A DNA stretch of 38,442 bases, taken from positions 1-38,442 of the forward strand of contig JAGWVB010000008.1 in the NCBI GenBank assembly GCA_018971105.1, in the 5' to 3' direction. How positions within the stretch are numbered: the stretch's first letter is position 1; every line of letters starts with the position of its first letter. The notes below the pieces were generated by a model. The model saw nothing but the letters and a program-made list of their open reading frames with translations, searched no databases and had not been told where the DNA came from. Below, one piece after another: positions 6,364 to 6,524 of the stretch. Position numbers and translations under genes: made by a program. Source of the stretch: Burkholderiales bacterium. Lineage in GTDB: Bacteria > Pseudomonadota > Gammaproteobacteria > Burkholderiales > Burkholderiaceae_C.

Positions 6364-6423
6364 ATTGTTCGGGCAGCCGCCGAAATCGAACAATGATCCG
6401 CTGGACTTACTCCCTAAGGGGTA
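6364..6423 (-). promoter_or_regulatory. Predicted promoter of the gcvT-like operon with NarL-like box
   Basis: Read on the minus strand, the dyad TACCCCTTAGGGAGTA (6423-6408) fits the NarL 7-2-7 pattern; its first heptamer matches TACYNMT exactly. Fourteen bases later comes TTGTTC (6393-6388), a possible -35, and after 17-18 bases GAACAAT (6370-6364) as a weak -10. Transcription would begin about 25 bases before the chosen gcvT start. The same layout occurs upstream of tmd1, tmd2 and torF. Confidence 0.5.
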
Positions 6424-6465
6424 GACGGCTGGCGGCGGAAACCGCGGGTTAACGGCAGGCGGCGC

Positions 6466-6524
6466 TACCTATTCGGTGGTAATCCCAGCTAGGAATTGGC
6501 GGCGACCGCGCGGTCGATCAGAGT
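6466..6524 (+). promoter_or_regulatory. Predicted tmd1 promoter with NarL-like box
   Basis: TACCTATTCGGTGGTA (6466-6481) is a TACC-N8-GGTA dyad resembling a NarL 7-2-7 site. A 14-base linker beginning ATCCC and ending AA leads to TTGGCG (6496-6501), then 17 bases to CAGAGT (6519-6524). Dyad, linker and TTGGCG are strikingly like the tmd2 upstream region. An alternative reading is a sigma-54 promoter, since GG (6498-6499) and GC (6510-6511) are spaced as in -24/-12 elements. Confidence 0.55.

Follow-up and report, generated by a model that had tools for sequence, protein, structure and literature searches.

Genes and promoter sites of the trimethylamine cluster

The window analysed here is a stretch of 38,442 bp from the genome of a Burkholderiales bacterium (4.8 Mb in 499 contigs), and most of it is occupied by a methylated-amine cluster (Table 1). 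Besides two trimethylamine dehydrogenase genes, tmd1 and tmd2, the cluster contains reductase, TMAO-permease-like transporter, sarcosine-oxidase-like and type III glutamine synthetase-like genes, and tmd1 is accompanied by genes for an iron-sulfur protein and ETF, the latter named from sequence reading. Between the tmd1-etf genes and the permease lies a block of DUF1329, RND-type transporter, DUF1302 and YCF48-like genes (12787-19554); DUF1329 genes are also found near tmd in loci L005, L006, L007, L018 and L059. The start of the gcvT-like open reading frame seems to be over-extended (6331-6351). It is probably located at 6333 (MRRNS...), behind GGAGA, since the homologues begin with MRRNS or MQRNS.

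Table 1. Regulatory and coding features of the window, in order of position, with the basis of each assignment
Feature	Position	Strand	Basis or remark
NarL-type response regulator, proposed activator	255..956	-	NCBIfam NarL equivalog; PDB 1a04 alignment
Sensor histidine kinase	1015..2748	-	NarQ/NarX-like only in C-terminal transmitter; short unrelated sensor region
gcvT-like folate-dependent aminomethyltransferase, target	5212..6351	-	Pfam GCV_T
gcvT promoter -10 position, GAACAA (AACAAT one base on)	6365..6370	-	family -10 columns 54-59; weak match
gcvT promoter -35, TTGTTC	6388..6393	-	17 bp upstream of family -10
gcvT-side proposed second overlapping dyad, columns 15-30, TAAGTCCAGCGGATCA	6394..6409	-	family column similarity at shift 14; abuts -35
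gcvT-side upstream dyad (7-2-7), TACCCCTTAGGGAGTA	6408..6423 (written 6423-6408)	-	sequence; matrix 29.1 bits; genome search E 0.040
tmd1 upstream dyad, TACCTATTCGGTGGTA	6466..6481	+	sequence, matrix, genome search
tmd1 proposed second overlapping dyad, TAATCCCAGCTAGGAA	6480..6495	+	family column similarity
tmd1 promoter -35, TTGGCG	6496..6501	+	spacing to family -10
tmd1 promoter -10 position, CAGAGT	6519..6524	+	
tmd1, trimethylamine dehydrogenase, target	6575..8767	+	homologues in 80 loci
tmd2 element	21338..21373	+	dyad TACCCCACAAGTGGTA 21338-21353, linker ATACCTGCTGGCAA, TTG; proposed second dyad 21352-21367; -35 21368-21373; -10 position GACAGT 21391-21396
tmd2, second trimethylamine dehydrogenase, target	21532..23727	+	76% identical to tmd1; own promoter-element copy
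sigma-54 activator	33787-35469		
torF element	36291..36326	+	dyad TAGCTCCTTCGGAGTA 36291-36306, linker AGCCCTAGGGAGCA, TTG; proposed second dyad 36305-36320; -35 36321-36326; -10 position TCCAAT 36344-36349
TorF-family putative porin, target	36392..37261	+	NCBIfam TIGR02001 over cut-off

Four sites with a common layout, in which a 16-bp dyad is followed by 14 bp and then by TTG, are present upstream of gcvT, tmd1, tmd2 and torF. On the gcvT side the order on the minus strand is TACCCCTTAGGGAGTA, AGTCCAGCGGATCA and TTG; on the tmd1 side it is TACCTATTCGGTGGTA, ATCCCAGCTAGGAA and TTG on the plus strand, and the starts of these back-to-back sites are 43 bp apart. In strength, the window sites fall below the average of the family. 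The dyad palindrome comprises 4 of 8 pairs at tmd1 and only 3 of 8 at torF, where one half-site begins with TAG.

Specificity and architecture of the shared element

A weight matrix trained solely on sites outside the window, taken from tmd upstream regions of other genomes, ranks exactly these four sites first (29.1, 25.3, 25.0 and 19.0 bits), with the next-best window match at -3.6 bits. None of 300 dinucleotide shuffles attains the score of the fourth site, the best shuffle reaching 12.2 bits. When the 4.8-Mb genome was searched with a profile lacking the window sites (first pass heuristic), the same four were the only matches with E < 0.1 (0.009-0.044), and one partial match was found elsewhere (E = 0.71). 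Furthermore, 197 matches at 8 bits were obtained in 80 tmd loci, versus 3.8 with column-shuffled matrices. The shared element is real and far above chance. The four sites described in the initial annotation are thus confirmed in position, and a matrix scan of the kind that it proposed, with a matrix from other genomes' sites, returns them alone; comparable matches in coding sequence, which would have spoken against them, were found neither in the window scan nor in the whole-genome search.

In an alignment of 142 sites, columns 54-59 are conserved as well, roughly as [GT]A[AT]AAT, and this second block follows the TTGTNN of columns 31-36 at a distance of exactly 17 bp. The match to TATAAT peaks at this spacer (3.44 of 6, against 1.4-2.5 for other spacers; 132 sites). 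Since a conserved -10 lies at the ideal spacing, TTG is the -35 element, as had been supposed, and the two hexamers have the separation of about 17 bp that characterizes sigma-70 promoters. This spacing also led to the rejection of a sigma-54 reading for TTGGC. Transcription would be expected to start at about column 66 of the element, which puts the predicted start sites 25-130 bp ahead of the start codons, provided that gcvT starts at 6333. The -10 boxes of the window (CAGAGT, GACAGT, TCCAAT and GAACAA) are poor, in keeping with a promoter that depends on an activator.

The upstream dyad consists of two inverted TACYNMT heptamers with 2 bp between them, which is the 7-2-7 arrangement of NarL operators. 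The heptamers match 5.1 and 5.2 of 6 informative positions, versus 2.1 expected, and C and T are about equally common at position 7. The NarL-like reading of the dyad in the initial annotation is therefore supported, the half-sites following the NarL heptamer pattern. Its dyad-linker-TTG layout holds as an arrangement, with the correction that the linker is no mere spacer: its sequence is conserved, and it probably forms a second operator. Likewise, the A-N2-CC linker start, though true of all four sites in the window, is no rule of the family, in which A17 (64%), C20 (94%) and T22 (90%) are conserved and C21 is free. The linker thus carries information, for columns 17-36 suffice, without the dyad, to place the window sites at ranks 1-4 in 38 kb.

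A symmetrised template of the first dyad fits columns 15-30 best of all other shifts (shift 14, z 6.4; z 4.7 without the shared TA), and TACYNMT is matched by half-site H3 at 4.3 and by H4 at 3.9 of 6 positions, versus 2.1 expected. For these reasons, the 14-bp linker is probably a second 7-2-7 operator that overlaps the first by 2 bp, and the centres of the dyads would lie at about -57.5 and -43.5. Of all parts of the model, this second operator is the least secure. Columns 15-30 are degenerate in the window, being weakest in the gcvT and torF sites, and the proposed second dyad is weak in the gcvT-side site taken singly. Covariation between the arms, tested in both dyads, is at expectation, so that dyad symmetry is a matter of column composition only. 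Alternatively, only the upstream 16-bp dyad could be an operator, with the linker serving as an extended -35 or as the contact of another protein, for which sigma region 4, alpha-CTD and a second regulator are candidates. The internal symmetry of columns 15-30, far below that of columns 1-16 (2.5 versus 6.3), would agree with this, as would the T-T of H4 where NarL has T-A and the GAGAA-TTG end, which is sharp like a core promoter motif. A single operator is nevertheless considered rather unlikely in view of the template fit at shift 14, the scores of H3 and H4, and the fact that the second unit itself starts with TAC in a gcvT-type subset. The reading with two overlapping operators is therefore retained below.

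Distribution and target genes in other bacteria

A species collection yielded 80 loci, mostly of methylotrophs, with close tmd homologues, to which the tmd1 product is 70-88% identical over its full length. Upstream of tmd, the layout of dyad, 14 bp and TTG recurs, usually at a distance of about 95-130 bp from the start codon. It is seen in Hyphomicrobium, Methylophaga, many Methylophilaceae and several lineages without cultured members; an examination of orthologous tmd upstream regions, as suggested in the initial annotation, thus finds the element present. Site scores are bimodal across loci, either exceeding 10 bits or with nothing above about -8. The element is found on the tmd side or upstream of a colinear gcvT-like gene in 55 of the 80 tmd loci, which represent alpha-, beta- and gammaproteobacteria: 42 loci have the site no more than 450 bp upstream of tmd, and 13 further ones have it 0.45-2.2 kb upstream. 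In the Paraburkholderia group, the operon begins with a colinear gcvT-like gene, and this distant site directly precedes that gene. Divergent gcvT and tmd genes whose sites stand back to back are also present in L002, L003, L004 and L007, with starts 32-148 bp apart.

The other genes directly after sites are TMAO-permease-like (23), gcvT-like (17), folE2 (14), DmmA-like (7) and TorF-like (3), and globin, cupin and reductase genes are also found in this position. Together, tmd, TMAO-permease-like, gcvT, folE2, DmmA-like and torF genes make a coherent set. The presence of the element before the GTP cyclohydrolase gene folE2 in 14 loci (for example L053 207, L019 3548 and L016 3190) suggests that folate supply is co-induced with the use of methylated amines. 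A subtype is seen on the gcvT side in Methylophilaceae and Methylophaga (L010 17735, L039 18238, L049 11825 and similar sites), in which TTT replaces TTG and the linker begins with C and contains CTTCA/ATC.

A search of 36 genomes of the same genus found neither tmd nor the site. The trimethylamine cluster therefore looks as if it was acquired together with its control elements, the operator travelling with the genes. A relative without tmd (G061, L169) keeps one site, upstream of a gcvT-like gene. In another locus of a relative without tmd, a strong site (L168 1499, E 4.6e-4) precedes the gene for a TctC-like binding protein and may be due to chance or represent another target.

A candidate NarL-type activator

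The response regulator encoded in the window has a receiver domain (Pfam Response_reg, 94 bits) and a GerE/LuxR DNA-binding domain (GerE, 75.4 bits), and it narrowly passes the NarL equivalog PRK10651 (256.6 bits versus a cut-off of 250). In a full-length alignment with E. coli NarL (1a04), its recognition helix reads TVKVHIK, versus TVKVHVK. In NarL, the K-V-x-x-K residues of this helix contact bases. Linked orthologous regulators in tmd genomes keep TVKVHxK, while the other regulators of this type in the present genome are at most 39% identical, and those with a readable helix are without it. A clade of 38 rows that includes E. coli NarL has a support of 100/100. In 24 tmd genomes, in which site presence was called by model or matrix, all 14 site-bearing genomes have a regulator of this clade, at about 48-63% identity, whereas 7 of the 10 genomes without a site also lack one. 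This association has a Fisher p of 0.0003, a statistic that ignores phylogeny and is non-independent because site and regulator both follow methylotroph lineages. A regulator of the clade with no detected site is found in G010, where the contig ends before the operon head, and in G014 and G024. Regulator gene and site share a contig in most of the genomes that bear a site, no more than about 35 kb from each other.

Hence one regulator for trimethylamine oxidation and its folate and porin partners, as envisaged in the initial annotation, gains support from a candidate that tracks the site across genomes, and the NarL-type regulator is probably the activator of the shared element. It is improbable that the sites serve another regulator, such as an unlinked LuxR-type protein or the sigma-54 activator, with the NarL-type pair as a mere neighbour. 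A gene for a sigma-54 activator is present in the cluster and also in several loci of Paraburkholderia. Yet this activator was seen in few of the loci, whereas the NarL-type pair tracks the sites, and the half-sites follow the degeneracy of NarL heptamers. Furthermore, sigma-54 activators do not act at sigma-70 -35/-10 promoters, which the present sites directly abut.

The NarL-type regulator seems to be NarL-like in its DNA reading, with a signal that is probably other than nitrate. The kinase matches NarX/NarQ only at residues 309-568, in the transmitter half, and has a short periplasmic stretch in place of their nitrate-sensing periplasmic domain; in addition, no match to NarG over cut-off is found in the genome. 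An alignment of kinase homologues, in which the sensor region is too variable, revealed no conserved signal there. A true nitrate-responsive NarL, coupling trimethylamine oxidation to nitrate or anaerobiosis, might be read from the equivalog score, 6.6 bits over the cut-off, and from the nesting of E. coli NarL in the same clade. This is highly improbable given the features of the kinase, the lack of a NarG match, and the fact that every gene served by the four genome sites is a methylated-amine gene, with no site elsewhere at E < 0.1; control of nitrate respiration is not indicated.

We consider it likely, on the strength of these sequence comparisons, that an activator-dependent sigma-70 module under the NarL-type regulator drives gcvT, tmd1, tmd2 and torF. 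The module would span about 60 bp and comprise two overlapping NarL-type 7-2-7 operators, near -57.5 and -43.5, which would directly abut the TTG -35, with a weak -10 following after 17 bp. The regulator, phosphorylated by the kinase, would bind the tandem operator as two dimers and recruit RNA polymerase to the four genes, activation being favoured over repression. Trimethylamine oxidation, folate-linked demethylation and outer-membrane passage would thereby be induced together, presumably by a methylated-amine-related signal. A counterpoint to the model with two dimers is that the 14-bp offset puts them on different faces of the helix. On a broader scale, we lean slightly towards the existence of a methylated-amine and folate regulon that is widespread in alpha-, beta- and gammaproteobacteria and moves horizontally. 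It would be governed by a NarL-derived system in which a C1-related signal has replaced nitrate and a fixed double operator, sharing 2 bp, lies upstream of the -35.

LuxR-type control of C1 or small-alcohol oxidation has precedents. FlhSR of Paracoccus is a two-component system with a LuxR-type regulator that acts on methanol, methylamine and formaldehyde oxidation; by system type alone, it resembles the present pair as LuxR-type two-component control of C1 oxidation in a methylotroph. FlhS is named in PMC3925955. In Pseudomonas, AgmR/ErbR and PedR2/ExaE are likewise LuxR-type response regulators for small-alcohol oxidation, but their targets are PQQ-dependent alcohol dehydrogenases, and the available part of the source gives no operator like the present element for them (PMC12997753). 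E. coli NarL is similar in DNA reading, with the same recognition-helix residues. It binds two tandem 7-2-7 sites at ogt (-77.5 and -44.5, 33 bp apart) and a site just upstream of the -35 at yeaR-yoaG (PMC7419079). The inverted heptamers 2 bp apart are a common feature. If the proposed second dyad is an operator, there would also be a site that abuts the -35, a tandem arrangement as at ogt and a position (-43.5) that resembles -44.5 (PMC7419079). However, the two sites of the present element would be 14 bp apart, with a 2-bp overlap, instead of 33 bp, and its seventh heptamer base is often C, not T. Its targets, moreover, are methylated-amine and folate genes, and the kinase sensor is not NarX-like.

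The open-access literature was searched for the motif string and for a trimethylamine regulator, and nothing relevant was found. How tmd-type bacteria regulate the aerobic oxidation of trimethylamine therefore appears, provisionally and with respect to open-access literature, to be undescribed. The element provides a specific regulator-operator hypothesis that is testable in culturable strains, for example of Methylophilus methylotrophus, Methylophaga and Paraburkholderia, and it predicts regulon members, including folE2, gcvT-like and porin genes. It probably also represents a re-use of NarL-type DNA reading outside nitrate respiration. A PAS/GGDEF-like protein (2621-4486, named from sequence reading) adjoins the kinase and the regulator, and its homologues accompany the regulator-kinase pair in several other tmd loci.
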